A DNA stretch of 64,000 bases from Streptacidiphilus rugosus AM-16 (GTDB lineage: Bacteria > Actinomycetota > Actinomycetes > Streptomycetales > Streptomycetaceae). Made by a program: the position numbers and the translations under genes. Each line of letters opens with the position of its first letter. Position 1 is the first letter of the stretch. Location of the stretch: the NCBI RefSeq assembly GCF_000744655.1, contig NZ_JQMJ01000004.1, positions 1,426,001 through 1,490,000 of the forward strand. The letters run 5' to 3'. Shown piece by piece: positions 5,171 through 22,689 of the stretch. Under the pieces are notes generated by a model that searched no databases, was not told where the DNA came from, and saw only the letters and a list, made by a program, of their open reading frames with translations.

Positions 5171-5221
5171 CCTGACGCTCCCTTGGCGGCTGACGCGTGA
5201 ACCCTGACGCAGCCTTGACGC
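5171..5221 (-). promoter_or_regulatory. Four-part 11-21-11 operator, copy A
   Basis: Half-sites (plus strand) CCTGACGC at 5171, CTTGGCGG at 5182, CCTGACGC at 5203 and CTTGACGC at 5214 are spaced 11, 21 and 11 bases; on the minus strand they read GCGTCARG. No minus-strand gene follows to the left, so this copy has no obvious target except usp on the other side. The 447-base gap 4989-5435 holds the stem-loop, copy A and copy B and no convincing gene. Confidence 0.75.
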
Positions 5222-5293
5222 GGCGTCCGCCAGGACCGCAACCCCGCACCCCGCCCGGCGATCCAGAGGACCTCAGTGGCCGTCGTCACATCG

Positions 5294-5344
5294 GTCGTAA
5301 GAGCGCGTCAAGGCTGCGGGCCGCGCCGTACACGCGACGTCAAA
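5294..5344 (+). promoter_or_regulatory. Four-part 11-21-11 operator, copy B (usp)
   Basis: Half-sites GTCGTAAG at 5294, GCGTCAAG at 5305, CCGTACAC at 5326 and ACGTCAAA at 5337, spacing 11-21-11. Sites 2 and 4 are strong, 1 and 3 weak. The last half-site ends 91 bases before the usp start codon. Confidence 0.7.
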
Positions 5345-5435
5345 ACGGTCGGGACCTGCCCCGTTCCTGCGTTGGAATAGCCGGTGACGGTCCTCCGGGC
5401 CGCCCTTCCCCCGTCACAGGAGTAGTGAGTTCGCC

Positions 5436-5987
5436 ATGTCCCACTCGGGGCGCGTCGTCGTCGGAGTCAGCGGAACACCGACCAGCCTGCAGGCCCTGCG
5501 TGTGGCCGTGACCGAGGCCCGCAAGGCCGGGTCCCGGCTGAGCGCCGTACTGGCCTGGACGCCTCCGGGCGGTGAGCTGGGCTACCGGCGCGCGCCCTGC
5601 CCCCCGCTGCTGCGGATCTGGGAGGACACCGCCGAGTGGCCGTTGCGCAACAGCTTCGACGAGGCGCTGGGCGGAGTGCCGACGGACCTGCCGGTGGAGC
5701 TGGTGGTGATCCGCGGCGACGCCGCGGAGTCCCTCGTCGAGTTGGCCGACGGGGCGGACGACCTGCTGGTCGTCGGCGCGGGAGCGCGCGGCGCGTTCGC
5801 GCGCCTGGTCCACGGCGGGACGGCCCGGCGGTGCGTGGGCCGGGCTCACTGCCGGGTACTGACGGTCCCGGCCCCGGAACTGCTCGGCTCGCTGCCGTGG
5901 CGGCAGCGACACCGCGTCCCGAGCCCCCCGCACGAGCCCAGCCCGCCGACGGGTTCCCCGACGCCACGGGACCGCGCGCCGCACTGA
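5436..5987 (+). CDS. Universal stress protein (UspA family)
   Basis: 183-residue single-domain Usp. The first strand is GRVVVGVSGTPTSLQALRVA, and the nucleotide-binding loop near the C-terminus appears as VVGAGARGAFARLVHGGTARRC, a variant of the Gx2Gx9G(S/T) signature, so ATP binding is possible but not certain. The last 30 residues are Pro/Arg-rich and look unstructured. AGGAG lies 13 bases before the ATG, a long spacing. Copy B of the four-part operator lies 91 bases upstream, placing this gene in the proposed Kdp-linked regulon. Usp proteins commonly accompany osmotic or dormancy regulators in actinomycetes. Confidence 0.85.
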   Translation: MSHSGRVVVGVSGTPTSLQALRVAVTEARKAGSRLSAVLAWTPPGGELGYRRAPCPPLLRIWEDTAEWPLRNSFDEALGGVPTDLPVELVVIRGDAAESLVELADGADDLLVVGAGARGAFARLVHGGTARRCVGRAHCRVLTVPAPELLGSLPWRQRHRVPSPPHEPSPPTGSPTPRDRAPH

Positions 5988-6108
5988 CGCCGAACCGCAC
6001 GGGCCGGTGCCCGGAGTTGACGGCCGCGCTGCTGGGTGTGCTCGCGGCGGACCGGATCCTGGTACGCCGCTGGGCGCGCCGGGGACTGTACCGCCGGGCT
6101 GACGTCGA

Positions 6109-6240
6109 TCAGCCCGCGGATCGGACGGGGAGGACCAGCACCATGGTCAGGCCGCCGCCCGGGCTGTCCTCGGCCTCCAGCGTCAGGCCCATCGCCTCGG
6201 CGTACCCGCGTGCCAGGGCCAGATGCAGGCTGGGGCTCAC
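6109..6240 (-). pseudogene. KdpD C-terminal remnant fused to a kdpF-like start
   Basis: A 43-codon frame from GTG at 6240. Residues 6-37 (LHLALARGYAEAMG to GGGLTMVLVLPV) are the end of the KdpD histidine-kinase ATPase domain and align with the last residues of both intact KdpD proteins here (LARGLTEAMGG, DTPGGGLTMVL). The first codons, GTG AGC, sit where kdpF starts with GTG AGT in the intact operon, with the same 4-base GTGA overlap with the small upstream gene. The simplest reading is one deletion from just inside kdpF to near the end of kdpD. The fragment cannot be a working kinase. Confidence 0.85.
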
Positions 6241-6320
6241 AGGCGCATCACCCCACGGGCGATCAGCGCGAGCGCGCCGAAGACCGACACCGTGACGGCG
6301 ACGTAGACCACGTCGGCCAT
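6237..6320 (-). CDS. 27-residue membrane peptide, paralogue of the kdp leader peptide
   Basis: A single-helix peptide of 27 residues (MADVVYVAVTVSVFGALALI, then a basic RGV end). It aligns without gaps to the 27-residue peptide preceding kdpF at 16171-16254: same length, the VTV-VF core, ALALI/LALI and a final MRL/ERL. GGAG lies 6 bases before the ATG. It survives as the first gene of a decayed kdp locus and may be a passive leftover or still make a regulatory micropeptide. No four-part operator is found upstream of it. Confidence 0.7.
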   Translation of the reverse strand: MADVVYVAVTVSVFGALALIARGVMRL

Positions 6321-6457
6321 GAATCGCTCCGCTGGTGCGTGGCTCCCGGCTCAGGCGACCGGATCAGCCCCGATCCGTCACCCCACAAGCTCGTAGGCAA
6401 TCCGGCCCCGCCCCCCGGTCCCCCGGTCGGCGAGCAGGGCGGAGGGTCGACGTCCGG

Positions 6458-6532
6458 TCAGGAACCGTCGCGTTTGCCGTGATTGCCGGCCTTCTTGCGG
6501 CGGTCGTGCTTCCTGCGGGCGCGCTTGGACAT
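6458..6532 (-). CDS. Mini-ribosomal protein bL37
   Basis: 24 residues, strongly basic (MSKRARRKHDRRKKAGNHGK, then RDGS). It matches the actinobacterial large-subunit protein bL37 known from mycobacterial ribosome structures, sharing the KR-RK--DRR and NHGKR pattern and its length. GAGGGA lies 7 bases before the ATG. It lies 53 bases downstream of the SDR gene on the same strand and may be transcribed with it or from its own promoter. So short a gene is easily missed in annotation. Confidence 0.85.
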   Translation of the reverse strand: MSKRARRKHDRRKKAGNHGKRDGS

Positions 6533-6585
6533 GGTCGGGTCCCTCGGGTTCTGTGCGGGTGGTCGGAAGTCGGGGTGGTACACCG

Positions 6586-7431
6586 TCACGGGACGGGCAC
6601 GAGCTCGGAGGTGAGCCTCTCGCTGAGCTTGAGCAGGCGGTCCACCGAGCGCTTGTCGCTGACCTGCGGCCCGGCTGCGGTGACGGAGTCGCGCTCGTAG
6701 TAGCCGCCGTTGACGACCTCCGCACCCGGGTCGCACAGGTGCACGACCGTCTCGGCGACCTCGCCTGCCGGACGGCCGGTCGTGCCGTAGAGGGGACGGG
6801 TGGCGGTCTCGGCCACGCCCGGGTGGACGGTCAGCGCGGTGTGGCCTGCGGGCAGCCACTGGGCCAGCGCGGTGACGAACGTCGTCAGCGCCAGCTTGGA
6901 CTGACCGTAGGCGGCGATCCGCGAGTAGCGCTTGGCGCGGGTCAGGTCGGTCCAGTCGATGTTGGCGGTGCGGTGCAGGGTCGAGCCCAACGCGACGATG
7001 CGCGTGTCGGTGCCCCGGGCCAGCGGTCGCTCCAGCAGTCGGGTCAGCAGGTAGGGAGCGAGGTAGTTGACCTGGAAGGCCAGCTCGTTCCCCTCGTCGG
7101 TGAGGGTGCGCCGCTCGGGCGCGGAGATTCCCGCGTTGAGCACGAGCAGGTCGATCCGCCGGTGCTCCTCGGCCAGCCGGTCCGCGAGCGCGCGGACCGC
7201 GTCGAAGTGGCGGAAGTCGGCGACGGCCTGCTCCAGACGGCCGGTGGGCGCGCCCAGTTCGACCAGCGCCGCCGCGGCGGTGTCGGTGTTCTGCGCGGTC
7301 TGCCCGTGCACGATGACGCGGGCTCCGCCGCGGGCCAGGCGCAGCGCGGTCTGCAGACCGAGCCCGTTGGTGGCCCCGGTGACCAGGGCGGTGCGGTCGG
7401 CGAAGGGGTATCCGGACATGGCAGTGGACAC
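6586..7431 (-). CDS. Short-chain dehydrogenase/reductase (retinol-dehydrogenase-like)
   Basis: 281-residue classical/extended SDR. Cofactor loop is TGATNGLG (TGxxxGxG), the NNAG motif appears as LNAG, and the catalytic Ser-Tyr-Lys set is present (ALGST, YGQSKLAL). An Arg-rich region after the cofactor loop suggests NADP(H). The GTG at 7431 follows AAGGA by 5 bases; an ATG four codons in is also possible. The protein resembles WWOX/retinol dehydrogenase-like SDRs common in Streptomyces; substrate unknown. Operator copy I lies 271 bases upstream on the same strand. Confidence 0.88.
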   Translation of the reverse strand: MSTAMSGYPFADRTALVTGATNGLGLQTALRLARGGARVIVHGQTAQNTDTAAAALVELGAPTGRLEQAVADFRHFDAVRALADRLAEEHRRIDLLVLNAGISAPERRTLTDEGNELAFQVNYLAPYLLTRLLERPLARGTDTRIVALGSTLHRTANIDWTDLTRAKRYSRIAAYGQSKLALTTFVTALAQWLPAGHTALTVHPGVAETATRPLYGTTGRPAGEVAETVVHLCDPGAEVVNGGYYERDSVTAAGPQVSDKRSVDRLLKLSERLTSELVPVP

Positions 7432-7701: not shown

Positions 7702-7752
7702 CCTGACGCCAACGATATGTCCGCGATGCCGTTCTTGATCCCGGCTTAGCGC
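7702..7752 (-). promoter_or_regulatory. Four-part 11-21-11 operator, copy I (SDR)
   Basis: Half-sites (plus strand) CCTGACGC at 7702, CGATATGT at 7713 (weak), CTTGATCC at 7734 and CTTAGCGC at 7745. The last is identical to a half-site in the kdp promoter copy. It faces the SDR gene. The 476-base gap 7432-7907 contains copies I and D back to back; I see no convincing gene in the remainder. Confidence 0.65.
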
Positions 7753-7773
7753 CTGCCCGCGGCCACGACCGCG

Positions 7774-7824
7774 ACGCCAAGGCGACGTCAAGAGCCGACT
7801 CGTTCGCATATGAGCGCCGTCAGG
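7774..7824 (+). promoter_or_regulatory. Four-part 11-21-11 operator, copy D (orphan DNA-binding protein)
   Basis: Half-sites ACGCCAAG at 7774, ACGTCAAG at 7785, GCATATGA at 7806 (weak) and CCGTCAGG at 7817. It ends 83 bases before the GTG of the receiver-less regulator and lies only 21 bases from copy I, which points the other way. Confidence 0.7.
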
Positions 7825-7907: not shown

Positions 7908-8312
7908 GTGTCGGTCAGCTACCCGCGTGCGGCGCGGCACTGCCAGCGCCCTGGCATCCGAGCCCTGCCGCTCACCCTGCCCTCCGGACCCCCGCCGCTT
8001 CCGCGGCCGGTCACGCCGCCGGACCCGACCGCGCTCGCGGTGGACCGCGAGCGACGCACCGCACGTGCCGGCGGCCGGCCCTTGCACCTCACCAAGGTGG
8101 AGTTCGACCTGCTGGCCCAGTTGCTCGATCACCCGCTGCGCGTCTTCACCCGGGGCCGGCTGCTGGAGAGCGTCTGGGGCGTACCGGCCTTCGGAGACGG
8201 CCGCACCGTCGATGTCCACGTCACCCGGGTTCGCCGCAAGCTCGGACCGGGCTACCGCGAACAGATCGTCACGGTCCGCGGCGTCGGCTACACCTACGAC
8301 CCGGCCAGGTAA
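7908..8312 (+). CDS. Stand-alone OmpR/PhoB-type winged-helix DNA-binding protein
   Basis: 134 residues. After about 40 Pro-rich residues the whole protein is a Trans_reg_C winged helix: LTKVEFDLLAQLLDHPLRVF, RLLESVWG, the recognition region TVDVHVTRVRRKLG and the wing VRGVGYTYDP. No receiver domain precedes it, so it cannot be phosphorylated like a response regulator. AAAGGA lies 8 bases before the GTG. It has its own four-part operator (copy D) and converges on kdpE1. Such a protein could bind the direct-repeat operators constitutively or compete with KdpE. Its recognition helix differs from that of the two KdpE proteins, so shared sites are inference. Confidence 0.8.
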   Translation: MSVSYPRAARHCQRPGIRALPLTLPSGPPPLPRPVTPPDPTALAVDRERRTARAGGRPLHLTKVEFDLLAQLLDHPLRVFTRGRLLESVWGVPAFGDGRTVDVHVTRVRRKLGPGYREQIVTVRGVGYTYDPAR

Positions 8313-8325
8313 CCGCGGCGGCGGG

Positions 8326-9009
8326 TCACGGCTCGAAGCGGTACCCCATGCCCGGCTCGGTGAGCAGGTGACGCGGGTGGGCCGGGTCCGGCTCCAGCTT
8401 GCGGCGGAGCCCGGCGAAGTACACCCGCAGGTAGTTGGTCTTCTGCTCGTGGCCCGGCCCCCACACCTGTTGCAGGATCTGGTGGCCTGTGACCAGCTTG
8501 CCCGGGTGCGCCAGCAGCACTCCGAGGATGCGCCACTCGGTCGGGGTGAGCCGCACCGCGGACGCGCCGCCGGCGGAGAGCACCTGGGCGCTGCCGACGT
8601 CCACGGTGAACTCACCGATCACGACCCTCGGGGCGAGAGCTTCGGTACGAGTGGGCCGGCGCAGCGCGGCCCGCAGTCGGGCGAGCAGCTCGTTCATGGC
8701 GAACGGCTTGGTGACGTAGTCGTCCGCGCCGGCGTCCAGAGCGGCGATCTTCTGGGCGAAGTCGGAGCGCCCGGACAGCACGATCACCGGCACGTCGCTC
8801 CACACCCGCAGTGCCTGGATCACCTGGACACCGTCGATGTGCGGCAGGCCCAGATCCAGGATGATCGCCTCCGGCGGCGTCCGTGTGGCCTCGAGTAACG
8901 CCTGTCTGCCGTCCAGGGCGACGGCCACCTGGTACTTCCGTGCCTGCAGGTTGATCTGAAGTGCCTTCAGCATCTGCGACTCGTCGTCGACGATCAGGAT
9001 TCGGGTCAC
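8326..9009 (-). CDS. kdpE: Response regulator KdpE (first copy)
   Basis: 227-residue OmpR-family response regulator. The receiver domain has the acidic pocket VDDE, the phospho-acceptor Asp in IILDLGLP, the Ser of VIVLSGRS and the Lys of DDYVTKPF. The winged helix ends RVYFAGLRRKLEPD and PGMGYRFEP, the KdpE type. The GTG start overlaps the kdpD stop by 4 bases (GTGA), so translation is coupled to the kinase. KdpE activates kdp transcription in K+ limitation or osmotic stress. It is about 60 percent similar to KdpE2 at 21041. Confidence 0.95.
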   Translation of the reverse strand: MTRILIVDDESQMLKALQINLQARKYQVAVALDGRQALLEATRTPPEAIILDLGLPHIDGVQVIQALRVWSDVPVIVLSGRSDFAQKIAALDAGADDYVTKPFAMNELLARLRAALRRPTRTEALAPRVVIGEFTVDVGSAQVLSAGGASAVRLTPTEWRILGVLLAHPGKLVTGHQILQQVWGPGHEQKTNYLRVYFAGLRRKLEPDPAHPRHLLTEPGMGYRFEP

Positions 9010-11573
9010 GCTGGTGCCGTTCCGTTCCTCACCGGATGGTGGTCGAGGGCGACGGGCAGGTCGAGGACCATGGTCAGTCCGCCGCCGGGGGTGTCCTCGG
9101 GGGTGAGCGTGCCGCCCATGGCCTCGGTCAAGCCCCTCGACAGGGCGAGGCCGAGGCCGACCCCGGTGGTGTTGTCGGTGTCGCCCAGCCGTTGGAACGG
9201 CTGGAAGATGCGCTCTCTGTCCGCCTCGCGGACCCCGGTGCCGCGGTCGACGATCCGGATCTCGACGCGGCCGGCCAACTCCCCCGCCGTGACCAGCACG
9301 GAACGGCCGCCTCCGTGCCGCAGGGCATTGGCGGTCAGATTGGCCAGCACCCGCTCCAGCAGGGGCGGGTCGACCAGCACCGGCGGCACGGCGTCCAAGC
9401 CGCGGCGGTCCACGGCCGGGTGCTCCTCGGTCAGGGAGTCGAGGGCGGCGCGCATCGCGTCGGCCACGCCGACGGGTTGCAGGTGCAGCGTGAGCGCTCC
9501 GGCCTGCAACCTGCTCATGTCGAGCAGGTTGTCCACCAGGGTGTTGAGCCGCAGCAGCGAACTCTGTGCGGTGCCGAGCAGTTCGTCGCGATCGTTCGCG
9601 GTGAACTCGACGTCGTGGCTGCGCAGTGAGGTGACGGAGGCGAGTGCGACGGCGAGCGGGGTGCGCAGGTCGTGGCTGACGGCGGCGAGCAGTGCGGCAC
9701 GCAGCCGGTCGGCGGCTCTGACAGGCTCCACCTCGGCGGCGGCCTCGGCCAGCCGGGCGCGTTCGACCGCACCCGCGACGTGCGCCGTGAAAGCGGCCAG
9801 GACACGTCGATCGGCCGCGGGGAGCGGTCGGCCGCGCAGCACGAGCACCGTGCCGGGCTCGATCGCGATCTCCTCCAGGGCGGTCTGCGCCTCCGTCTCC
9901 GCCGCGCCGTCAGCGGCTGGCCGGGCGCCCTCGGTGGTGGTCACCGCCCCGTCGTGGTGGAGCTCGACGGCGTCCATGCCGAACGTCTCCCGCAGGCGTT
10001 CGAGCAGCGCGGGCATGGCGTGCTCGCCGCGCAGCACGTTGCCGGCCAGCGCGGAGAGGGTCTCGGCCTCGGCTGTCGCCCGCGCCGCGCGGCGCGAGAA
10101 GCGGGTGCCGGTGTCCACCACGGCTGCCACCGTGACCCCGATCAGGACGAAGACCACCAGGGCCAGCACGTTGTTGGGATCGCTGACGGTGAGTTCGTCG
10201 ATCGGCGGGACGATGTAGTAGATCAGGAGCAGCGAGGCGACCAGGGAGGCCAGCAGCGCGGAGGTGATGCCGCCGAGCAGCGCCACCCCGACCACGACGG
10301 CCAGGTAGAGCAGGGCGTCACTGGTCAGGTTGACCGAGCCGCGCAGCAGGATGAGGATGCCGGTCAGCGCGGTGGGCAGCACCAGTCCCGAGACCGGCCC
10401 GGCGATGCGACGGGCCCGGGAGTGCAGTGCGCCGGGCAGTGCGAGCCTGCGCCCCCGCCCTGCGGCCTCGTGGGTGACCATGTGGACGTCGATGTCGCCG
10501 GAGAGCTCGACGATGGTCTCGCCGATGCCGCGCCCGGACAGGGCGCGCCGCAGAGCGCCGCGCCGGGAGGTCCCGAGGACGAGCTGGGTGGCGTTGGAGG
10601 CGCGGGCGAAGTCGAGCAGCGCGGTGGGGATGTCGTCGCCGACGACGGAGTGGTAGCTGCCGCCCAGCGATTCGACCAGCCGGCGCTGGGAGAGCAGGGC
10701 GGCCGGGTCGGCGTCGGCGAGGCCGTCGCTGCGGGCGACGTGGACGGCCAGCAGCGCGTCGCTGCCGGCCCGGTCCGCGATCCTGGCGGCGCGGCGGATC
10801 AGCGTCTCGCCCTCGGGGCCACCGGTCAGGGCGACGACCACCCGCTCGCGGGTCTCCCAGACCTTGGAGATCTCGTGCTCGGCCCGGTAACGCTGCAGCC
10901 CCTCGTCGACGCGCCCGGCCAGCCAGAGCAGCGCCAGCTCCCGCAGTGCGGTGAGGTTGCCGACGCGGAAGTAGTTCGACAGCGCCGCGTCGACCTTCTC
11001 CGCGGCGTAGACGTTGCCGTGCGCCATCCGGCGGCGCAGCCCCTCCGGGGCCATGTCGACCAGCTCGATCTGGTCCGCCCGGCGCACCACCTCGTCCGGC
11101 ACGGTCTCCCGCTGCGGCACCCCGGTGATCTTCTCGACGACGTCGTTCAACGACTCCAGATGCTGCACGTTCACGGCCGCCAGCACGTCGATGCCCGCCG
11201 CGAGGAGCTCCTCGACGTCCTGCCAGCGCTTGGCATGGCGACCACCGGGAACGTTGGTGTGCGCCAGCTCGTCCACCAGTGCGACCTCGGGGCGGCGGGC
11301 GATGACGGCGTCCACGTCCATCTCGGTGAACCCGACGCCGCGGTAGTCGCGTTCGAGACGCGGGACGGCCTCGATGTCCGCCAGCAGGGCCTCGGTGCGG
11401 GGGCGTCGGTGGCACTCGACGTAGCCGATCACCACGTCCTGGCCGCGGCTGAGGCGACGGTGCGCCTCGTCCAGCATCCGGTATGTCTTGCCGACACCCG
11501 GCGCGGAGCCGAGGAAGACCTTGAGCCGTCCCAGTGGCGACGGCGGCGACGGACCGTTCCATCGCACTGACAC
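9006..11573 (-). CDS. kdpD: Sensor histidine kinase KdpD (first copy)
   Basis: 855 residues, full KdpD architecture: N-terminal KdpD domain with Walker A GSAPGVGKT and Walker B VALVDELAHTN (about residues 20-230), a Usp-like domain (about 250-370), four membrane helices (about 395-500), a GAF-like linker, the H-box AVSHDLRTPLA, the N-box and the ATP-lid DTDNTTGVGLGLALS. AAGGGAG stands 5 bases before the GTG. It is last but one in kdpFABCDE and separated from kdpC by a perfect palindrome. About 690 bp (10573-11272) is nearly identical to kdpD2. Confidence 0.95.
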   Translation of the reverse strand: MSVRWNGPSPPSPLGRLKVFLGSAPGVGKTYRMLDEAHRRLSRGQDVVIGYVECHRRPRTEALLADIEAVPRLERDYRGVGFTEMDVDAVIARRPEVALVDELAHTNVPGGRHAKRWQDVEELLAAGIDVLAAVNVQHLESLNDVVEKITGVPQRETVPDEVVRRADQIELVDMAPEGLRRRMAHGNVYAAEKVDAALSNYFRVGNLTALRELALLWLAGRVDEGLQRYRAEHEISKVWETRERVVVALTGGPEGETLIRRAARIADRAGSDALLAVHVARSDGLADADPAALLSQRRLVESLGGSYHSVVGDDIPTALLDFARASNATQLVLGTSRRGALRRALSGRGIGETIVELSGDIDVHMVTHEAAGRGRRLALPGALHSRARRIAGPVSGLVLPTALTGILILLRGSVNLTSDALLYLAVVVGVALLGGITSALLASLVASLLLIYYIVPPIDELTVSDPNNVLALVVFVLIGVTVAAVVDTGTRFSRRAARATAEAETLSALAGNVLRGEHAMPALLERLRETFGMDAVELHHDGAVTTTEGARPAADGAAETEAQTALEEIAIEPGTVLVLRGRPLPAADRRVLAAFTAHVAGAVERARLAEAAAEVEPVRAADRLRAALLAAVSHDLRTPLAVALASVTSLRSHDVEFTANDRDELLGTAQSSLLRLNTLVDNLLDMSRLQAGALTLHLQPVGVADAMRAALDSLTEEHPAVDRRGLDAVPPVLVDPPLLERVLANLTANALRHGGGRSVLVTAGELAGRVEIRIVDRGTGVREADRERIFQPFQRLGDTDNTTGVGLGLALSRGLTEAMGGTLTPEDTPGGGLTMVLDLPVALDHHPVRNGTAPA
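10573..10820 (-). repeat. Identical 248 bp tract shared with kdpD2 (inverted copy 1)
   Basis: By direct comparison this stretch of kdpD is identical, base for base, to 19219-19466 in kdpD2, including third codon positions. High identity continues to about 11272. The copies are in opposite orientation, about 8.4 kb apart. Confidence 0.85.
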
Positions 11574-11643: not shown

Positions 11644-12273
11644 TCAGCTGAGCTGCGTCAGCGCGAGGTTGAGCTCGAGGACGTTCACCCGGGGCTCGCC
11701 GAGGAAGCCGAGGGTGCGGTCCTGGGTGTACTGCTTCACCAGTGCCCGGACCTTGTCGGCACTCAGGCCGCGGGCCTGGGCGACGCGGTCCACCTGGACG
11801 GCGGCGTAGGCGGGGCTGATGTCCGGGTCCAGACCGGAGCCGGACGAGGTGATCGCATCGGCCGGGACCGCGCTCTCCGCCACGCCGTTGAACTTGGCGA
11901 TGTCGGACTTGAGCTGGGTGTAGTTCGTCACCAGGGTGGCCGAGTTGGTGCCTTGGTTGGTGCCGGCCGAAGCCGTCGGGTCGTAGCCGTCGGCGCCGGC
12001 CGCAGAGGGCCGGGACTGGAACAGCTTGGGGTCCGGCGACTGCGTCTTGCCGTCCTTGGACACGATCGTGAAGTTCTGCCCGATGAGCGAGGAGCCGACG
12101 AGGTTTCCGTGGGCGTCCTTGAGCAGCGAGCCGTTGGCCTGCTTCGAGAAGGCCACCTGCGAGATCCCGGTGATCGCCAGCGGGTAGGCGAGGCCGCACA
12201 GCACGGTGAAGATCAGCAGGATGCGCAGACCGGTGAGGTGGTTCCGCACCGAGGTCGGAAAGGGCTTAGCCAT
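11644..12273 (-). CDS. kdpC: K+-transporting ATPase subunit KdpC
   Basis: 209 residues. One N-terminal membrane helix (LRILLIFTVLCGLAYPLAIT) is followed by the KdpC extracytoplasmic domain, with GSSLIGQNF, FQSRPSAAG, SGSGLDPDISP and the C-terminal GEPRVNVLELNLAL, all family hallmarks. KdpC stabilises the KdpFABC complex. Starts 21 bases after kdpB ends. Confidence 0.97.
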   Translation of the reverse strand: MAKPFPTSVRNHLTGLRILLIFTVLCGLAYPLAITGISQVAFSKQANGSLLKDAHGNLVGSSLIGQNFTIVSKDGKTQSPDPKLFQSRPSAAGADGYDPTASAGTNQGTNSATLVTNYTQLKSDIAKFNGVAESAVPADAITSSGSGLDPDISPAYAAVQVDRVAQARGLSADKVRALVKQYTQDRTLGFLGEPRVNVLELNLALTQLS

Positions 12274-12294
12274 GGTTGGTCACATCACTTCTGG

Positions 12295-14421: not shown

Positions 14422-16085
14422 CAGTGGAGGCCCTCCGCGAGCGGCCCGAGCGCGAGGGCCGGGAAGTAGGTGAGCCCGACGACGATGAGGATCACGCCCG
14501 AGAGCATGCCGACGAACAAGGGGCTGTGGGTCTTGAGGGTGCCGGTCGTCTCCGGCGTGAGCTGCTGCCTGGCCAGCGAGCCCGCCAGCGCCAGCACGAA
14601 CACCATGGGCAGGAAGCGGCCGAACAGCATCGCCAGGCCCAGTGCCTCCTGCCAGTGGTTACTGGTCACCGTGATGCCGGCGAAGGCCGAGCCGTTGTTG
14701 TTGGCGGCGGAGGTGAAGGCGTAGAGCACTTCGGAGAAGCCGTGCGGGCCGGTGTTGGCCATGCCGCCGCCGTGACCTGCCTTGAGCGACATCGCCAGGC
14801 CGGTGCCGACCAGGACGACCGTCGGGGTGGCCAGGATGTAGAGGGAGGCGAACTTCATCTCCCGCGCGCCCAGCTTCTTGCCCAGGTACTCCGGAGTACG
14901 GCCGACCATCAGGCCCGCGACGAACACGGTCACGATCGCCAGGACGAGGATGCCGTACAGGCCGGAACCGGTGCCGCCGGGCGCGATCTCGCCGAACATC
15001 ATGTTCAGGATCGCGGTCCCGCCGCCGAGCGGGGTGAACGAGTCGTGCATCGAGTTGACCGCACCCGTGGACGTCAGCGTCGTCGAGGCGGCGAACAGGG
15101 AGCTGCCCGGAATACCGAAGCGGACCTCCTTGCCCTCCATCGCCGCACCGGCGATCTGCGCGGCGGCGCCGGAATGCCGGCTCTCGAAGAACGTGATCAG
15201 CGCGGCGGAGGCCATCCAGTACAGGCCCATGACCGAGACGATCGCGTAGCCCTGCTTCTGCGACTTCACCATGGTGCCGAAGGTCCGGCACAGCGCGAAC
15301 GAGATCACCAGCAGCAGGTAGATCTCCAGCCAGTTGGTGAACGGGTTCGGGTTCTCGAAGGGGTGCGCGGAGTTGGCGTTGTAGAAGCCGCCGCCGTTGG
15401 TGCCCAGCTCCTTGATGACCTCCTGCGAGGCCACCGGACCGCCGGGAATCGACTGCGCGGAACCGCTGAGGGTGTGGACGGTCTGCGCCATGTGGAGGTT
15501 CTCCACGACGCCGCCGGCGACCAGGACCAGCGCGAAGACGATCGAGATCGGCAGCAGCACACGCAACGTGAGCCGGGTCAGGTCGACCCAGAAGTTCCCG
15601 AGCCGGTCGGTCTTGTGGCGGATGAAGCCGCGGATCAACGCCGTGACGACACAGATGCCGACCGCCGCCGACAGGAAGTTCTGCACCGCGAGACCGGCCA
15701 TCTGCACCAGGTGGCCCATCGTGGCCTCACCCGAGTACGACTGCCAGTTCGTGTTGGTCACGAACGACGCCGCCGTGTTCCACGCCATCGAAGGCGAGAC
15801 CGCGGGGAAGCCCAGCGACAGCCACAGATGGTCCTGCAGGCGCTGCAGGGCATAGAGGACGATCACCGAGACGAAGGAGAAGGCCAGCACCGAGCGGAGA
15901 TACGCCGCCCAGGTCTGCTCCGCCTCGCCGTCGACGCCGATCAGCTTGTAGATGCCGCGCTCGACCCGCAGGTGCTTGCGCGTGGTGAGCTCATAGGCCA
16001 TGTAGTCGCCCAGCGGGCGGTAGGACAGAGCCAGCGCCCCCACCAGGGCGAGGGCCTGCAGCAGGCCGGCAACAGTTGGGTTCAC
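14421..16085 (-). CDS. kdpA: K+-transporting ATPase subunit KdpA
   Basis: 554 residues, the K+ channel-like subunit with four pore repeats. Recognisable filter or loop segments include [31 protein letters not shown] and [15 protein letters not shown]. The GTG at 16085 is chosen because it overlaps the kdpF stop by one base and gives the normal KdpA N-terminus; the open frame extends upstream only because it crosses kdpF. Confidence 0.97.
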
Positions 16086-16174
16086 TAGAACTTCTCCGGA
16101 CGGATCAGAGCCGCGACGAGGTAGGCGATCAGGGCGATCGCGACGATCAGCCCGATGACGTTGTCGGCACTCAC
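16085..16174 (-). CDS. kdpF: KdpF small membrane subunit
   Basis: 29 residues from GTG 16174: a single membrane helix ([19 protein letters not shown]) ending RPEKF, the conserved KdpF tail. KdpF stabilises the Kdp complex. Its GTG overlaps the stop of the preceding 27-residue gene by 4 bases (GTGA), and its TAG overlaps the kdpA GTG by one base, so the three are translationally coupled. Confidence 0.93.
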
Positions 16175-16254
16175 AGCCGCTCAACCCCCTTGACGATCAG
16201 GGCGAGGATCGCGAACACGACGACCGTCACCCCCACGAAAAACAGGTCCTGCAT
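16171..16254 (-). CDS. 27-residue membrane peptide, first gene of the kdp operon
   Basis: ATG 16254 to [23 protein letters not shown] followed by VKGVERL, one hydrophobic helix with a basic C-terminal edge. It is not KdpF, which follows immediately, yet it has a clear paralogue at 6237-6320 with the same length and the same GTGA overlap to the next gene. Two copies keeping the same peptide argue that it is translated. It may be an extra Kdp subunit or a leader peptide controlling translation of kdpF. Confidence 0.75.
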
Positions 16255-16370: not shown

Positions 16371-16421
16371 CTTGACGGGCTCCATGCGCCGCCGCCGGGA
16401 ACCTGAGCGCGGTCTTAGCGC
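16371..16421 (-). promoter_or_regulatory. Four-part 11-21-11 operator, copy E (kdpFABCDE)
   Basis: Half-sites (plus strand) CTTGACGG at 16371, CCATGCGC at 16382 (weak), CTGAGCGC at 16403 and CTTAGCGC at 16414. It ends 116 bases upstream of the first gene of the operon. Copy F, for the divergent gene, lies 161 bases away. The 493-base gap 16255-16747 holds these two operators and no gene. Confidence 0.7.
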
Positions 16422-16582: not shown

Positions 16583-16633
16583 TGGCTAAGGAAGCGTCAA
16601 GATTTGCCGGCGGCGCGTCAGGACAGCATCAGG
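16583..16633 (+). promoter_or_regulatory. Four-part 11-21-11 operator, copy F (double-sensor protein)
   Basis: Half-sites TGGCTAAG at 16583, GCGTCAAG at 16594, GCGTCAGG at 16615 and GCATCAGG at 16626, exact 11-21-11 spacing. It ends 114 bases before the ATG of the membrane protein at 16748. Confidence 0.75.
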
Positions 16634-16747
16634 GACGCTGCCGTGAAGCCGACGGACCGAGCAGAGTGATCGTCCACAAGCCCGCAACGGCTCGGAATAA
16701 GGGGACGGGGTCGCGTGCTCGCGCCTCGCGGAAGGACAGTGCTCGGA

Positions 16748-18262
16748 ATGGCCGTTCTCAGCGAGGGGACGCACGCGACCCCCACCCAGGGCGAGCGCCC
16801 ACTGCGCGGCACGGACCCGGAGGAAGCGGGCCCGCGCCGGAGCGTGCGACACTCCGGCAGGTCGTGGCGGCCGCGTGCCTCGGTGCCCGCCCGCCTGCGC
16901 CAGGGCACGGCGTTGTGCCTGCTGCTCACCGTCGTCCTCGGTCTGCTCGGCCTGAGCGTCGCCGTCGGTGCGCAGTCCACCTGGACCGCGGTGGGATCGC
17001 AGCAGGCTCCGCAGGTGCTGGACGCCACGGGGCTCTACCAGGCCCTGACCGACCTGGACGCGCAGAGCGCCAACCTGATCATGTTCGGCGCCGACCCCGC
17101 CCTGGCCGCCAACCGCGCCGACGCGCTCAAGGCCTTCAGTGCCGACCGCACCGCCGCCGACCGGGACCTGCAGCAGGCCACCCTGGCCGCCGCGGGCAGC
17201 CCATCGGTGCAGCGTGCGCTCGCCGACGTGCTCGACGGCATGGGCCGCTACCAGGACCTCGACGGCCGCGCGCTGGCCCTCAACGACGCGGGGCACCGCC
17301 CCGCGGGACAGCCGAGCCCGGACGCGCTGACGGACTACCGTCAGGCCACCGACCTGATGCGGGGCACCCTGCTCCCTGCCGCCGACCGCCTGGTCACCGC
17401 CAACAACGACGCCTACAACCGCAGCTACGACGCGGAGCGCTCCGCGCTCGGCACCGGGCTGTGGTGGCTGCTCACGCTGGGGGCGGCCCTGCTCGCGGCG
17501 CTGATCGGACTCCAGGTCTGGCTCAGCGCCCGGTTCCGGCGGCGCGTCAACCCGGCCCTGGCCGCGGCGACGCTTCTGGCCGTCCTCTTTCTCGCCCTGG
17601 CCGGCAGCCTGTGCACCAGCCAGCGCGAGGACCTGCGGGCGGCGCGACGCGACGCCTTCGACTCGGTGGTGGCGCTGTCCCGCGCTCGAGCCGACGCCTA
17701 CGACGCCAATGCCGACGAGAGCCGATACCTGCTCGACTCAGGCCGCGCCGCCCAGTACCAGGACGCGTTCGAGACCGAGAGCCAGCTGATCGCGGCTCTT
17801 CCCGGCACGTCACTGCCGGACTACGACGCCCGGCTCGCCGACGCTGTGACCGCCTACCACGGGAACCACGGTGACATCCGCTTCGGCGGCTTCCTGGGCG
17901 CCGAGTTCCACAACGTCACCTTCCCCGGCGAACGCGCCGCGGCGGAGCGCACTCTGGCCGCCTACCAGCTCTACGAGCGTGACGACCGCACGATCCGCGC
18001 CCTGGCCGGCCGGGGCCGGCTGCACGACGCGATCGCCTACGGCACCAGCTACGCCCCTGGCGCCTCCAACGCCGCCTTCGCCGCACAGGACACCGCACTC
18101 CAGCAGGTCATCAGCATCAACACCACCGCCTTCGACCACAGCATCGACCAGGCCCGCGGTGAACTCTCGACCCGCGTCCCGCTGCTGGCGGCGGCAGCCG
18201 CGCTGATCCTGCTGCTCTGCCTCCTGGGCGTCCGTCCGCGCCTCGCCGAGTTCCGCCGTTGA
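16748..18262 (+). CDS. Membrane protein with two tandem sensor-like modules and no output domain
   Basis: About 504 residues. A basic cytoplasmic tail of about 50 residues, then membrane helix 1 (about 55-75), an outer helical region of about 170 residues, helices 2 and 3 separated by a short Arg-rich cytoplasmic turn (about 240-290), a second outer helical region of about 180 residues, and helix 4 near the C-terminus. The outer regions are rich in Ala, Asp and Gln with heptad-like spacing, resembling four-helix-bundle (MCP/4HB) sensor domains. No kinase, HAMP or GGDEF domain follows. I do not recognise a named family. Its position between the two kdpDE loci and its own operator (copy F) suggest it modulates one of the KdpD proteins. 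Start uncertain (GTG at 16739 possible). Confidence 0.7.
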   Translation: MAVLSEGTHATPTQGERPLRGTDPEEAGPRRSVRHSGRSWRPRASVPARLRQGTALCLLLTVVLGLLGLSVAVGAQSTWTAVGSQQAPQVLDATGLYQALTDLDAQSANLIMFGADPALAANRADALKAFSADRTAADRDLQQATLAAAGSPSVQRALADVLDGMGRYQDLDGRALALNDAGHRPAGQPSPDALTDYRQATDLMRGTLLPAADRLVTANNDAYNRSYDAERSALGTGLWWLLTLGAALLAALIGLQVWLSARFRRRVNPALAAATLLAVLFLALAGSLCTSQREDLRAARRDAFDSVVALSRARADAYDANADESRYLLDSGRAAQYQDAFETESQLIAALPGTSLPDYDARLADAVTAYHGNHGDIRFGGFLGAEFHNVTFPGERAAAERTLAAYQLYERDDRTIRALAGRGRLHDAIAYGTSYAPGASNAAFAAQDTALQQVISINTTAFDHSIDQARGELSTRVPLLAAAAALILLLCLLGVRPRLAEFRR

Positions 18263-18277: not shown

Positions 18278-18328
18278 GCGTTAAGAGCACGTGAAGGATC
18301 GTTGCCCGGCCGCATGGAAGGCGTTAAG
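18278..18328 (+). promoter_or_regulatory. Four-part 11-21-11 operator, copy G (kdpD2-kdpE2)
   Basis: Half-sites GCGTTAAG at 18278, ACGTGAAG at 18289, CCGCATGG at 18310 (weak) and GCGTTAAG at 18321. It ends 122 bases before the likely kdpD2 start, implying autoregulation of the second pair or cross-regulation by the first. Confidence 0.7.
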
Positions 18329-18450
18329 AGAGGCGCCGCGGCATGCCCTCACGGGGTTTCCTTGACCGAGCCGCCGTAGGCGGCTGACCAGGCGCAACAA
18401 CACTCGTGAGCCGTCCCGTCGCACGGCGGTCCGGGAACGGAGACACTGTC

Positions 18451-21039
18451 GTGGCATCGCAAGCCCCCCGGTCCGCACCCCGCCTCAACGGCGGCGGCCG
18501 GGGCCGAGGCGTGCTGAAAGTCTTTCTGGGCTCCGCGCCCGGTGTCGGCAAGACCTACAAGATGCTGGACGAGGCGCACCGCCGGGCCGAGCGCGGCGCC
18601 GACGTGGTCGTCGCCTTCGTCGAGTGCCACGGCCGACGCCACACCGAGGAGATCCTGGACGGCCTGGAGGTGGTGCCCCGGCTCAGCCGGGAGTACCGGG
18701 GCACCGCGTTCGAGGAGCTCGACACGGACGCCGTCATCGCCCGCCGCCCGCAGGTCGCCGTCGTCGACGAGCTGGCGCACACCAACATTCCCGGCGGTCG
18801 CCATGCCAAGCGCTGGCAGGACGTCGAGGAGCTCCTCGCGGCGGGCATCGACGTGCTCACCACGGTCAACGTGCAGCATCTGGAGTCGCTCAACGACGTC
18901 GTCCGGAAGATCACCGGGGTGCCGCAGCGGGAGACCGTGCCGGACGAGGTGGTGCGCCGGGCGGACCAGATCGAGCTGGTCGACATGGCCCCGGAGGGGC
19001 TGCGCCGCCGGATGGCGCACGGCAACGTCTACGCCGCCGAGAAGGTCGACGCCGCGCTGTCGAACTACTTCCGCGTCGGCAACCTCACCGCACTGCGGGA
19101 GCTGGCGCTGCTCTGGCTGGCCGGGCGCGTCGACGAGGGCCTGCGCCGCTACCGGGCCGAGCACGAGATCTCCAAGGTCTGGGAGACCCGCGAGACCGTG
19201 GTCGTCGCCCTGACCGGCGGCCCCGAGGGCGAGACGCTGATCCGCCGCGCCGCCAGGATCGCGGACCGGGCCGGCAGCGACGCGCTGCTGGCCGTCCACG
19301 TCGCCCGCAGCGACGGCCTCGCCGACGCCGACCCGGCCGCCCTGCTCTCCCAGCGCCGGCTGGTCGAATCGCTGGGCGGCAGCTACCACTCCGTCGTCGG
19401 CGACGACATCCCCACCGCGCTGCTCGACTTCGCCCGCGCCTCCAACGCCACCCAGCTCGTCCTCGGCACCAGCCGGCGCGGCGCCCTGCGGCGGGCGCTC
19501 ACCGCGGGGCGCGGCATCGGCGAAGCCACGATCGAGCTCTCCGGCGACATCGACGTCCACATGGTCACCCACGAGAACGCCGGCCGCAGTCGGCTCCCCT
19601 TCGTGGCGAAGACCCGGCACCCCACCACCGAGGGACGTTCTACGCCACGGCGCTGGGCGGGCCTGATCAGCGGCCTGATCCTGCCGCCGCTGCTCACCCT
19701 GGTGCTCGCGCAGACCCGCGACGCGATCAACCTGACCAGCGACACCCTGCTCTTCCTCGCCCTCGTCGTGGGCATCTCGCTGCTCGGGGGCATGGCTTCG
19801 GCCCTGGTGGCCTCGGTGGTGGCCTCACTCCTGCTCAACTACTACTTCATCCCGCCCATCCACGAGTTCACCATCGCCTCCCCCAACAACGTGCTGGCGC
19901 TCGCGGTGTTCGCGACCGTCGCGATGGTGGTCGCGGGAATCGTGGACACCGCCAGGAAACTCGCGCAGCGCGCCGCCCGGGCCACCGCCGAGGCCGAGAC
20001 CCTCTCCGCGCTCGCCGGCAGCGTCCTGCGCGGGGACCAAGCGGTGCCTGCGCTGCTGGACCGGCTGCGCGAGACGTTCGGGATGGTCAGCGTGGACCTG
20101 GTCGACGGCGTCCCGCAGGCTCGGGTCGGTGAAGAGATCATGCCCGTCGGCGGCGACGCGGCGCTCGTCCTGCGCGGCCGCCCGCTGCCCGCCTCGGACC
20201 GGCGGGTGCTGGCCGCCTTCGCCGCGCACGTCCAGGTCGCCCTGGAACGCGACCGGCTGGCCGAGGTGGCGGCGGAGGTCGAACCCGTCAAGGCCGCCGA
20301 CCGGCTGCGCACCGCGTTGCTCGCCGCCGTCAGCCACGACCTGCGCACGCCCCTGGCCGTCGCGCTCGCCTCGGTGTCGTCGCTGCGCAGCGACGACGTC
20401 GAGTTCACCGCCGACCAGCGGGCCGACCTGCTGTTCGCGGCCGAGGAGTCACTGGGCCGGCTGTCCTCGCTGGTGGAGAACCTCCTCGACATGAGCCGTC
20501 TCCAGGCCGGCGCGCTCACCCTCGATCTCGGCCCGACCGCGCTGGAGGACGTCTGGTCCGCCGCCGTCGCCTCCCTGCCCGCTCCGACGGCTCCCGTGGA
20601 GGTGCGCGGGCTGGACGAGGTCCCGCCGGTCCACGCGGACGGGCCGCTGCTGGAGCGGGTGCTGGCCAACCTGGTGGCGAACGCGGTGCGGCACGCACCA
20701 GGCTCGCCGCTGCTGGTCTCCGCCAGCGTGCTGGGAGACGGCGTCCAGGTCCGCGTCGTGGACCGCGGTCCAGGCATTCCCGAGGGTGCTCGGGACCGGG
20801 TGTTCCAACCCTTCCAGCGGCTGGGCGACACCGACAACACCAACGGCGTCGGCCTCGGTCTGGCCCTCGCCCGCGGTCTGACCGAGGCGATGGGCGGCAC
20901 CCTCACCCCGGAGGACACCCCCGGCGGCGGACTGACCATGGTCCTCACCCTCCCCGCCCACCTCCTCGACGAGGAGGACGAGGTGCCCGAAACGGGCGAA
21001 CACCACCAGGCCGTCCCCACTCTGACCGAGAGGAACTGA
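18451..21039 (+). CDS. Sensor histidine kinase KdpD, second copy
   Basis: About 862 residues with all KdpD parts: Walker A GSAPGVGKT, Walker B VAVVDELAHTN, a Usp-like domain, four membrane helices (around 405-510), H-box AVSHDLRTPLA, and GVGLGLALARG. GGAG lies 8 bases before the GTG at 18451; an in-frame GTG at 18406 lacks such a site. It forms a two-gene unit with kdpE2 and is not linked to a second kdpFABC, so it probably controls other genes or the same operon. The middle third is nearly identical to kdpD1 while the N-terminal 90 residues and the kinase half are clearly diverged. Confidence 0.93.
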   Translation: MASQAPRSAPRLNGGGRGRGVLKVFLGSAPGVGKTYKMLDEAHRRAERGADVVVAFVECHGRRHTEEILDGLEVVPRLSREYRGTAFEELDTDAVIARRPQVAVVDELAHTNIPGGRHAKRWQDVEELLAAGIDVLTTVNVQHLESLNDVVRKITGVPQRETVPDEVVRRADQIELVDMAPEGLRRRMAHGNVYAAEKVDAALSNYFRVGNLTALRELALLWLAGRVDEGLRRYRAEHEISKVWETRETVVVALTGGPEGETLIRRAARIADRAGSDALLAVHVARSDGLADADPAALLSQRRLVESLGGSYHSVVGDDIPTALLDFARASNATQLVLGTSRRGALRRALTAGRGIGEATIELSGDIDVHMVTHENAGRSRLPFVAKTRHPTTEGRSTPRRWAGLISGLILPPLLTLVLAQTRDAINLTSDTLLFLALVVGISLLGGMASALVASVVASLLLNYYFIPPIHEFTIASPNNVLALAVFATVAMVVAGIVDTARKLAQRAARATAEAETLSALAGSVLRGDQAVPALLDRLRETFGMVSVDLVDGVPQARVGEEIMPVGGDAALVLRGRPLPASDRRVLAAFAAHVQVALERDRLAEVAAEVEPVKAADRLRTALLAAVSHDLRTPLAVALASVSSLRSDDVEFTADQRADLLFAAEESLGRLSSLVENLLDMSRLQAGALTLDLGPTALEDVWSAAVASLPAPTAPVEVRGLDEVPPVHADGPLLERVLANLVANAVRHAPGSPLLVSASVLGDGVQVRVVDRGPGIPEGARDRVFQPFQRLGDTDNTNGVGLGLALARGLTEAMGGTLTPEDTPGGGLTMVLTLPAHLLDEEDEVPETGEHHQAVPTLTERN
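19219..19466 (+). repeat. Identical 248 bp tract shared with kdpD1 (inverted copy 2)
   Basis: Base-for-base identical to the complement of 10573-10820, bounded by single mismatches at 19218 and 19467. High identity extends upstream to about 18769. Outside the tract the two genes differ at many third positions. Confidence 0.85.
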
Positions 21040-21040
21040 C

Positions 21041-21736
21041 GTGACCCAGGTCCTGGTCGTCGACGACGAACCGCAGATGCTGCGGGCACTGAAGATCAAC
21101 CTTCAGGCCCGGAAGTACGCCGTGAGCACCGCTGCCGACGGCGCCGAGGCCATCCGGGAAGCCACCCGGGCCATGCCTGATGCGATCATTCTCGATCTCG
21201 GGCTGCCCGACATGGACGGCGTCAAGGTGCTCGAACGGGTCCGCAGCTGGTCCAGCGTTCCGGTGATCGTGCTGTCCGGGCGCTCCGACTCCTCGGAGAA
21301 GGTGGCCGCGCTCGACGCGGGCGCCGACGACTACGTCACCAAGCCGTTCGCCATGAACGAACTGCTGGCCCGACTGCGGGCGGCGCTGCGCCGCCCGACG
21401 GCCGAGGGCACGGAAACCCTCACCAGCGTCATCGGATCGTGGACCGTCGACCTGCTCACGCACACCATCCGACGTACCTCCGACGACGGGACGGAGCCCG
21501 CTCTGCTGCGGCTCACTCCCACCGAGTGGAAGATCCTCATCGTCCTTCTCCAGCAACCCGGCCGACTCGTGACCGCCGGTCAACTGCTGACCAGCGTCTG
21601 GGGCCCCGGGTACGAGAAGAACAACAACTATCTCCGGGTCTACTTCACCGGCCTGCGCCGCAAGCTCGAACCCGATCCGTCGCACCCGCGGCACCTGGTG
21701 ACCGAACCGGGGCTGGGGTACCGCTACCAGCCCTGA
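21041..21736 (+). CDS. Response regulator KdpE, second copy
   Basis: 231-residue OmpR-family regulator. Receiver residues are intact (VDDE, IILDLGLPDMDG, VIVLSGRS, VTKPFAMNELL). The winged helix ends RVYFTGLRRKLEPD and PGLGYRYQP. The recognition helix (NNNYLRVYFTGLRRKLE) differs from KdpE1 (KTNYLRVYFAGLRRKLE) at only a few positions, so both could read the same direct-repeat operator. GAGAGGA precedes the GTG, one base after the kdpD2 stop. Confidence 0.95.
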   Translation: MTQVLVVDDEPQMLRALKINLQARKYAVSTAADGAEAIREATRAMPDAIILDLGLPDMDGVKVLERVRSWSSVPVIVLSGRSDSSEKVAALDAGADDYVTKPFAMNELLARLRAALRRPTAEGTETLTSVIGSWTVDLLTHTIRRTSDDGTEPALLRLTPTEWKILIVLLQQPGRLVTAGQLLTSVWGPGYEKNNNYLRVYFTGLRRKLEPDPSHPRHLVTEPGLGYRYQP

Positions 21737-21739
21737 GCT

Positions 21740-21912
21740 CGGGGCTACCCCGCCTACGACCGGATCACGGTGCTGATCCCCGAGGTCGAGCCGGAGCACT
21801 GGTGGACCTGGCCGCTGCACAACCAGCGCGGCGCGCTGATCTCCCGCGCGGTCCGGCGCGGCAGCGACGCCACCGTCTGCCGGCTCCGACTGCGCCTGGG
21901 CACCGCCGACTT
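21740..21912 (+). pseudogene. C-terminal remnant of a large APC-type permease
   Basis: Right after the kdpE2 stop and in the same frame, the sequence reads YDRITVLIPEVEPEHWWTWP, LHNQRGALISRAVRRGSDAT and VCRLRLRLG. This is the cytoplasmic end of the large actinobacterial APC-type permeases often found beside kdp genes (pattern LLIPEV--------L-NQRGA---R-VRR-TDA-VC). The membrane part is missing entirely, so only about 55 codons remain. The frame continues to 22150 without recognisable content. Confidence 0.6.
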
Positions 21913-22113
21913 TGGTTTCTTCGGCGAGATCCTCCCGCGACGGGTCCTCGGGCCGCGCGCCCCTCTCGTGCTCTCCCACCTGGACCGGTCGTCCGCCCTG
22001 CAAGGCTGGACCGGAGGAGGAGCCGGAACCGGCCCTGCGCTCCCCCACAGAGCTCTCCCCCAAAACCGTTCCCGTTGCAGAAACTACCCCGCCGGATCGC
22101 CCCTGGCCGCCGT

Positions 22114-22164
22114 CCTGACGCCGCCTTGGCGCTCCCGGCCGAAACTCTGACAGCGTCTTGACGC
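22114..22164 (-). promoter_or_regulatory. Four-part 11-21-11 operator, copy H
   Basis: Half-sites (plus strand) CCTGACGC at 22114, CTTGGCGC at 22125, TCTGACAG at 22146 (weak) and CTTGACGC at 22157. It lies between the permease remnant and the 3-prime end of the DUF3592 gene and faces leftward, where no intact minus-strand gene is present. Confidence 0.7.
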
Positions 22165-22180
22165 GGGACGTTCTCCCAGC

Positions 22181-22564
22181 TCAGCCGGGTATGGTGAGCA
22201 CCACAAGCGCGGCGAGCACCGCAGTGACGCCGAGGACGACGAAGAACCGCTCGCGTCGTCGCCCCTCGTGCTCCTCCACGAGCACCTCGCGCGGATCGGC
22301 CGGGTCGTAGCGCAGCCAGATGTCTGTCCCGTCCTGAAGACCGGAGGGCCCGAAGACCTCCATCACCTGCTCGCGCTCGTCCTCGGTGGTGAACTGCAGC
22401 AGCGGCCGGGTGGAGCCCGGGCGTGTCCGCACCAGCGCCCGCACGCGCCGTCCGTCCCGCCGCAGCCGCCGCACCTCACCGAGGCCGGACACTCCGCTGA
22501 GATAGGCGGCGAACCCGCCGATCCCCAGGAACGCCGCAGTCACGATCGCACCCGGACCACCCAT
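22181..22564 (-). CDS. DUF3592-family membrane protein
   Basis: 127 residues: N-terminal membrane helix (IVTAAFLGIGGFAAYL), a soluble beta-rich middle (RALVRTRPGSTRPLLQFTT, GTDIWLRYDPADPREVLVEE) and a second helix at the C-terminus (FFVVLGVTAVLAALVVLTI). This is the DUF3592 layout; the role of the family is unknown. Operators H and J lie on either side of it. Confidence 0.8.
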   Translation of the reverse strand: MGGPGAIVTAAFLGIGGFAAYLSGVSGLGEVRRLRRDGRRVRALVRTRPGSTRPLLQFTTEDEREQVMEVFGPSGLQDGTDIWLRYDPADPREVLVEEHEGRRRERFFVVLGVTAVLAALVVLTIPG

Positions 22565-22638
22565 GGCTCACCTTCCGCCCGCCTGTCGCCGCGCCTCCTT
22601 CCCAGTCTCCGCCGCCTTCGAACCGTCCGATCAGGACG

Positions 22639-22689
22639 GGGTCAAGGGAGCGTCAAGGACCAGGCCTTCGGCGTCAGAGCGGCATCAAG
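22639..22689 (+). promoter_or_regulatory. Four-part 11-21-11 operator, copy J (best conserved)
   Basis: Half-sites GGGTCAAG at 22639, GCGTCAAG at 22650, GCGTCAGA at 22671 and GCATCAAG at 22682; all four are strong and exactly 11-21-11. It lies about 75 bases upstream of the DUF3592 gene but points away from it. The 359-base gap 22565-22923 contains no other recognisable feature. Confidence 0.8.

Follow-up and report, generated by a model that had tools for sequence, protein, structure and literature searches.

The DNA analyzed here is a 64,000-nucleotide (nt) stretch of the genome of Streptacidiphilus rugosus AM-16, an acid-loving soil bacterium (contig NZ_JQMJ01000004.1, positions 1,426,001 to 1,490,000; hereafter the window). 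It contains the pump operon kdpFABC with kdpD1 and kdpE1, a second pair, kdpD2-kdpE2, and genes for a universal stress protein (Usp), a short-chain dehydrogenase (SDR), a receiver-less OmpR-type DNA-binding protein, and a GlnX-family signal transduction membrane protein. Interspersed with these genes are nine copies of one element of 51 base pairs (bp), which we call the tetrad: four direct half-sites resembling GCGTCAAG at offsets 0, 11, 32, and 43, a spacing of 11-21-11 (Table 1). It is highly probable, from sequence and conservation, that the nine sites are operators through which KdpE serves activator-dependent promoters, the set having grown in this island into a local regulon.

The starts of all nine sites, as given in the initial annotation, proved correct, with four sites on the minus strand and five on the plus strand. 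A script returned the same figure as the earlier hand count, 27 of 36 half-sites matching at six or more of 8 bases; the third half-site, read in site orientation, matches at 3–4 of 8 in five of the nine sites. Outside the nine sites, 22 of 32 consensus matches are attained nowhere in the window, and the three positions with 21 of 32 each overlap a site in another register. When each site was scored with a matrix of the other eight, the left-out site reached 16.1–41.5 bits, and the best of 126,140 non-site positions reached −0.3 to 3.9 bits. The genome-wide matrix search proposed at the outset, across the 9.0-Mb genome, placed the nine sites at ranks 1–9 (32.3–39.1 bits, E 7e-9 to 1e-6), followed by a single off-island site at 26.9 bits and a next match at 17.1 bits. 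This nine-site model was trained on the window sites themselves, and the weight rests on the leave-one-out scores and on other genera. A broader model of 53 sites, 40 from other genera (40 of 53 kdpA loci aligned) and 13 from Streptacidiphilus, ranked the off-island site first in the same genome and then eight of the nine window sites; site 7702 fell among background (17.0 bits, E 0.06). The relatives of KdpE1 likewise point to Streptacidiphilus as the genus of the window, and all 14 genomes of this genus that were searched carried sites, 2–12 each at E≤0.01. The off-island site precedes a gene for a 142-aa protein (locus L046, 7173–7601) that scores 17.4 bits against Pfam PF00582 (E 0.0067), under the gathering score of 24, and so is called Usp-like only.

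To examine other actinobacteria, a matrix from the window sites alone was run over 80 KdpE loci, 13 from Streptacidiphilus and 67 from elsewhere. Exclusion of 14 of the 67 (kdpA or its upstream region missing) left 53 loci, from genera including Nocardioides, Cellulomonas, Oerskovia, Isoptericola, Promicromonospora, Sanguibacter, and Enemella. The matrix scored above 9 bits upstream of kdpA in 51 of these 53, three of them (L108, L111, and L128) with the register shifted by one pair, and in 48 of the 53 loci the highest score in the 600 nt ahead of kdpA was also the highest of the whole locus. When 700 spacings were compared without fixing any of them, 11-21-11 came top, with 33.0 versus 22.5 for the runner-up. 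With the proximal pair anchored in 51 of the 53 promoters, the second pair appeared 32 bp upstream with a mean score of 11.9, compared with at most 0.4 at other offsets up to 70 and a background mean of −19.4; no half-site beyond the four stood out in this anchored analysis. In the window, site 16371 likewise lies upstream of kdpF in the orientation of kdpFABC. Because the tetrad is conserved upstream of kdpA across genera at the 11-21-11 spacing, it is, judged by its distribution, an old element of actinobacterial kdp promoters and not peculiar to the island. This conservation supports the initial proposal of an OmpR-family operator, with KdpE as its predicted reader, and of an island-wide regulon; the two tandem pairs are conserved as well, at a spacing that fits one helical face. 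In the Georgenia loci L116, L123, and L131, tetrad-like sites occur elsewhere within the KdpE locus, not ahead of kdpA.

Promoter layout was read from 111 distinct sites, selected solely on their operator scores, 11 of 122 rows having been dropped as duplicates, low-scoring, or short. In 51 of the 111, a T-N4-T pattern has its two T residues at nt 28 and 33 downstream of the operator, compared with a mean of 3.7 at other positions, and in 75 the pattern begins at nt 27 or 28. No conserved −35 was found across the 111 sites. Given a −10-like hexamer at a fixed distance of 27–28 nt from the end of the fourth half-site, and no conserved −35, KdpE most likely replaces the −35. Among the window sites, 5171, 5294, 16371, and 18278 have the pattern at nt 28 and 22114 has it at nt 27; 16583 and 22639 keep only the last T of the hexamer, and 7702 and 7774 only the first.

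Table 1. Tetrad operators, genes, and candidate RNAs in the window (hexamer positions are counted downstream of the operator)
Feature	Position	Strand	Remarks
Tetrad operator	5171..5221	-	−10-like TACCTT from nt 28; ahead of candidate small RNA 4980..5134(-)
Tetrad operator	5294..5344	+	Ahead of usp; −10-like TGGAAT from nt 28
Tetrad operator	7702..7752	-	Faces SDR gene; weakest of the nine under the broader model; −10 not clear at 27–28 nt
Tetrad operator	7774..7824	+	Faces receiver-less DNA-binding protein; no clear −10 at 27–28 nt
Tetrad operator	16371..16421	-	For kdpFABCDE1; −10-like TTACCT from nt 28
Tetrad operator	16583..16633	+	Ahead of GlnX-family membrane signalling gene; CAGAGT from nt 28
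Tetrad operator	18278..18328	+	Ahead of kdpD2-kdpE2; −10-like TTTCCT from nt 28
Tetrad operator	22114..22164	-	−10-like TAGTTT from nt 27; ahead of second, decayed candidate RNA copy
Tetrad operator	22639..22689	+	CGCAAT from nt 28; no product found
Candidate KdpE-controlled small RNA, ~155 nt	4980..5134	-	Downstream of 5171(-); strong terminal hairpin
Universal stress protein (Usp)	5436..5987	+	Pfam PF00582
Short-chain dehydrogenase (SDR)	6586..7431	-	Pfam PF00106
Receiver-less OmpR-type DNA-binding protein	7908..8312	+	Pfam PF00486 only; recognition helix unlike KdpE
KdpE1	8326..9009	-	Profile matches
KdpD1	9006..11573	-	Profile match
kdpF-kdpA-kdpB-kdpC	11644..16254	-	KdpA, KdpB, and KdpC matches; kdpF at ~16175–16254, by eye from the translation
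GlnX-family signal transduction membrane protein	16715..18262	+	Initially annotated as a double-sensor protein; NCBIfam NF058618, 252.0 bits, just over the cut-off of 250
KdpD2	18406..21039	+	Profile match
KdpE2	21041..21736	+	Profile matches
Second copy of candidate RNA	21922..22077	-	Downstream of 22114(-); broken terminal hairpin

The initial annotation had assigned genes to the sites, and for six of them this assignment agrees with the orientation of the operator. The remaining three, 5171(-), 22114(-), and 22639(+), face no same-strand protein gene. That the two sites flanking a DUF3592 gene serve it found no support; both point away from it, and the DUF3592 label is itself a sub-threshold match (E 0.011). 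Several apparent remnants were also observed. The segment 6109–6320(-) looks by eye like what is left of another kdp operon, with a KdpF-like peptide (6237–6320) and, immediately after it, a segment resembling the KdpD C-terminus (6109–6240, for which there was no Pfam match); kdpABC and most of kdpD are missing. Behind kdpE2, 21770–22150(+) encodes the C-terminal remnant of an APC-family, KimA-like transporter. The distant flank of 22639(+), at 22939–23089, is 79% similar to a DUF2254 gene of L051 read in antisense; such a gene lies among tetrad sites in relatives, and the flank is perhaps a relic.

Genes of the relatives were called with a crude caller based on GC content at third codon positions (GC3), and the counts of facing genes are rough: for 64 of the 111 sites, a gene on the same strand was called no more than 400 nt away. 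Full-length APC-family relatives of the 21770–22150 remnant were found with a tetrad in front in L200 and L207; their label "KimA-like" comes from protein size and from a review (PMC10117811). An APC-family transporter of 651–668 aa also stands directly behind the operator in five genomes that lack the KdpD sensor domain (L217, L218, L219, L221, and L223). The operons of these five run from tetrad to APC transporter to a KdpD-like kinase, with KdpE next in four and a contig edge next in L221. A diaminopimelate-decarboxylase-like gene lies behind a tetrad in L204 (TIGR01048, above cut-off), and Pfam-related decarboxylases of the diaminopimelate/ornithine type do so in L050, L210, and L212; the four cases span different genera. 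Elsewhere, SseB-like proteins and cation-efflux proteins are further predicted targets, and DUF2254 genes, at a distance of 342–584 nt, are a looser association.

Downstream of two of the geneless sites, 5171 and 22114, we identified two copies of a candidate small RNA. The first (4980–5134) starts at the −10, and its closing hairpin shows paired changes; five further Streptacidiphilus genomes conserve this stretch, and a sixth has a related copy. The second (21922–22077) is shared with L050, its hairpin being broken in the window. There are eight copies over seven of the 14 genus genomes, all eight found via the operator, and the next genes after them differ in part. A search of the 14 genomes with a model of the RNA gave strong matches only to its eight training copies, the next being at most 37.3 bits and hairpin-only or weak. 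Rfam at gathering score, over the window and four loci, yielded tRNAs only and no match for 4980–5134, and relaxed scans of the homologous L083 and L050 stretches gave only matches far under the gathering scores. A riboswitch or other known RNA in the conserved leader was accordingly rejected as an explanation, with no Rfam family matching at gathering score. Every copy has at least one stop-free frame, as a small protein gene would, though the sequences are GC-rich; a protein-coding reading is nevertheless not favoured, because mismatches fall about equally often in each of the three codon phases and most indels span 1–3 bases (28 pairs of the eight copies). The stretch is thus a candidate that is probably a non-coding, KdpE-controlled small RNA. 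In L055, L061, and L083, the operator ahead of the candidate RNA has a tRNA gene ~100–750 bases upstream of it.

Evidence as to which protein reads the operator came from its company in other genomes. An operator match at E≤1e-4 was found in 59 of 296 genomes of the class, and 48 of these 59 encode a KdpD domain, versus 161 of the 296 overall (Fisher p 1.6e-6). Among the matches listed, 41 genomes had both coordinates; read by eye, 30 of these have a site no more than 10 kb from KdpD. In ten of the 11 matched genomes without a KdpD domain, KdpE, a kinase resembling part of KdpD, or both lie next to the site, although what L221, L225, and L226 have is confined to fragments where the contig stops. 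A link to a bound sequence is provided by Mycobacterium smegmatis, where KdpE protects 18 bp at the promoter PkdpF and needs a 22-bp probe, CCGTAAAGAAACCATCAAGGCC (PMC5401905). This 22-mer corresponds to half-sites 3–4. Near copies of it (at most two mismatches) were present in 6 of 198 genomes of one genus, and all six precede kdpA at the half-site 3–4 position, the promoter-proximal pair; half-site 2 was recognisable in five of these promoters, and half-site 1 was weak.

The regulators of the genome itself were also compared. KdpE1, KdpE2, and KdpE3 have kept arginine at the positions aligned to R193 and R200 of the E. coli protein, and at the DNA-contacting residues of E. coli KdpE (R193, R200, and T215) the KdpE of this genome agrees, positions having been read by eye. 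KdpE3 belongs to a third KdpDE pair in the genome (L227, C4:5797000-5812000); it is 58–60% identical to KdpE1 and KdpE2 and has a similar recognition helix. No tetrad and no kdpFABC match were found within that 15-kb stretch. Beside KdpE1 and KdpE2, KdpE3 may be a further candidate reader of the sites.

From these data, we propose a model in which phosphorylated KdpE would bind each site through the four GCGTCAAG-like half-sites at 0/11/32/43. Two adjacent KdpE dimers would occupy the same helical face, from about −90 to −40, with the operator ending ~40 bp before the inferred transcription start. Bound KdpE would take over −35 recognition and recruit RNA polymerase, activating the promoter. 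Under potassium limitation, KdpD1 and KdpD2, and perhaps KdpD3, would phosphorylate KdpE, which would then turn on the pump operon, its own genes, the second kdpDE pair, the GlnX-family protein, Usp, the Usp-like protein, SDR, the receiver-less regulator, and the small RNA. KdpE binding, dimer stoichiometry, activation, and the potassium signal are all inferred here from sequence. Stated generally, actinobacterial KdpE would work via a conserved four-half-site operator that replaces the −35, and Streptacidiphilus would have a multi-promoter potassium regulon, with up to three KdpDE pairs converging on one operator type and including a new family of KdpE-activated small RNAs. We give this reading a probability of roughly 0.55.

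Several observations weigh against the reading of the sites as KdpE operators. In the window, just five of the nine sites show the T-N4-T pattern, and 22639 has no product; many copies have a weak half-site 1 or 3. By the crude caller, 30 of the 111 sites are directed at a gene on the opposite strand and 20 fall within a called frame. The 53 loci include many close relatives, and a clear site before kdpA was not found in two of them, L116 (Georgenia) and L160 (Serinicoccus). The M. smegmatis motif, at up to two mismatches, is present in only 6 of the 198 genomes of the one genus, and L220 has a strong site with no KdpDE on its contig stretch. Because 113 of the 161 KdpD-bearing genomes of the class gave no match at E≤1e-4, under strict filters, the motif is, as far as such searches indicate, not universal, or is diverging, among them. 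An explanation by chance, or by the composition of a high-GC genome with sites chosen by eye, draws on the consensus having originally been taken from the sites themselves; it was ruled out by the leave-one-out, genome-wide, 700-spacing, and cross-genus tests, is contradicted by the anchored pairs as well, and retains a virtually negligible probability. We also find it very improbable that the sites are read by the receiver-less protein or by a different member of the OmpR family (PhoP or MtrA, for example). The gene for the receiver-less protein is part of the island and encodes an OmpR-type DNA-binding domain, and eleven-base direct repeats are the general format of OmpR-family sites. In other genera, however, the tetrad accompanies kdpFABC and KdpE, and the kinase or KdpE found beside the site in 10 of the 11 KdpD-domain-less genomes points the same way. 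The receiver-less protein is disfavoured because its recognition helix is unlike that of KdpE: it reads RTVDVHVTRVRRKL where KdpE has NYLRVY..LRRKLE, with Asp at the R193 position (by eye), and its best NCBIfam profiles, PhoB and MtrA, are all far under their cut-offs.

A different division of labor within the tetrad deserves more weight, although we regard it as unlikely: the proximal pair alone would be the functional operator, and the distal pair a relic or an independent site with no role in activation. That 22 bp suffices for M. smegmatis KdpE in vitro, with an 18-bp footprint inside one pair (PMC5401905), also counts against our four-half-site model, as the distal pair may be auxiliary. 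Half-site 1 is poor in the six promoters of the 198-genome genus, and E. coli KdpE uses a single pair (PMC3264566). Against this stand the distal pair, held at 32 bp over the 51 anchored promoters, and the information content of half-site 2 (9.8 bits), which outweighs that of half-site 3 (7.1 bits). Less likely again is a mixed role, in which the tetrad would activate kdp and act as a repressor or insulator at divergent or geneless sites. Three sites do face no same-strand gene, and 7702 and 7774 have no −10 at the usual place; yet the geneless 5171(-) and 22114(-) have both a −10 and conserved sequence downstream.

KdpE, its pair motif, and control of kdp are already known. Searches of open-licence papers turned up no account of the tetrad, of the fixed −10, of a wider regulon in actinobacteria, or of the RNA, and a 2023 review notes that no Streptomyces model had been the subject of a KdpDE analysis (PMC10117811). 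The tetrad would provide a precise, searchable signature of KdpE control in actinobacteria. Beyond the pump, it predicts targets that include KimA-like transporters, Usp, GlnX-family proteins, an enzyme like diaminopimelate decarboxylase, and a small RNA; it also predicts a promoter layout amenable to base-by-base testing.

Among known systems, the PHO boxes of Streptomyces PhoP are 11-nt direct repeat units of an OmpR-family regulator whose core sequence and targets differ from those of these tetrads. Direct repeats are described for OmpR-family regulators in the E. coli report, where the KdpE site is a single pair, TTTATA/TTTACA, at −72 to −50, unlike GCGTCAAG (PMC3264566). The window sites, with four GCGTCAAG copies, do not present the AT-rich TTTATA-N5-TTTACA single pair of this E. 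coli type. The M. smegmatis motif, CCGTAAAG-AAA-CCATCAAG, by contrast equals one pair of the tetrad, with an 11-bp period and half-sites matching at 6 of 8 each; there too, KdpE exerts positive control of kdpFABC at low potassium (PMC5401905). The initial annotation's claim that no described regulon has this exact pattern therefore stands for the tetrad only, since one pair matches this bound motif. In the part of the M. smegmatis description available, no second pair or fixed −10 spacing is given, and a SigF-type −10/−35 is named (PMC5401905). For Cutibacterium acnes, the corresponding portion of the report describes a direct repeat, not four half-sites (PMC3848588). The start of its kdp promoter was mapped there, with reads rising ~100-fold after a potassium downshift, and the direct repeats predicted as the KdpE site overlap the −35, resembling the tetrad (PMC3848588).

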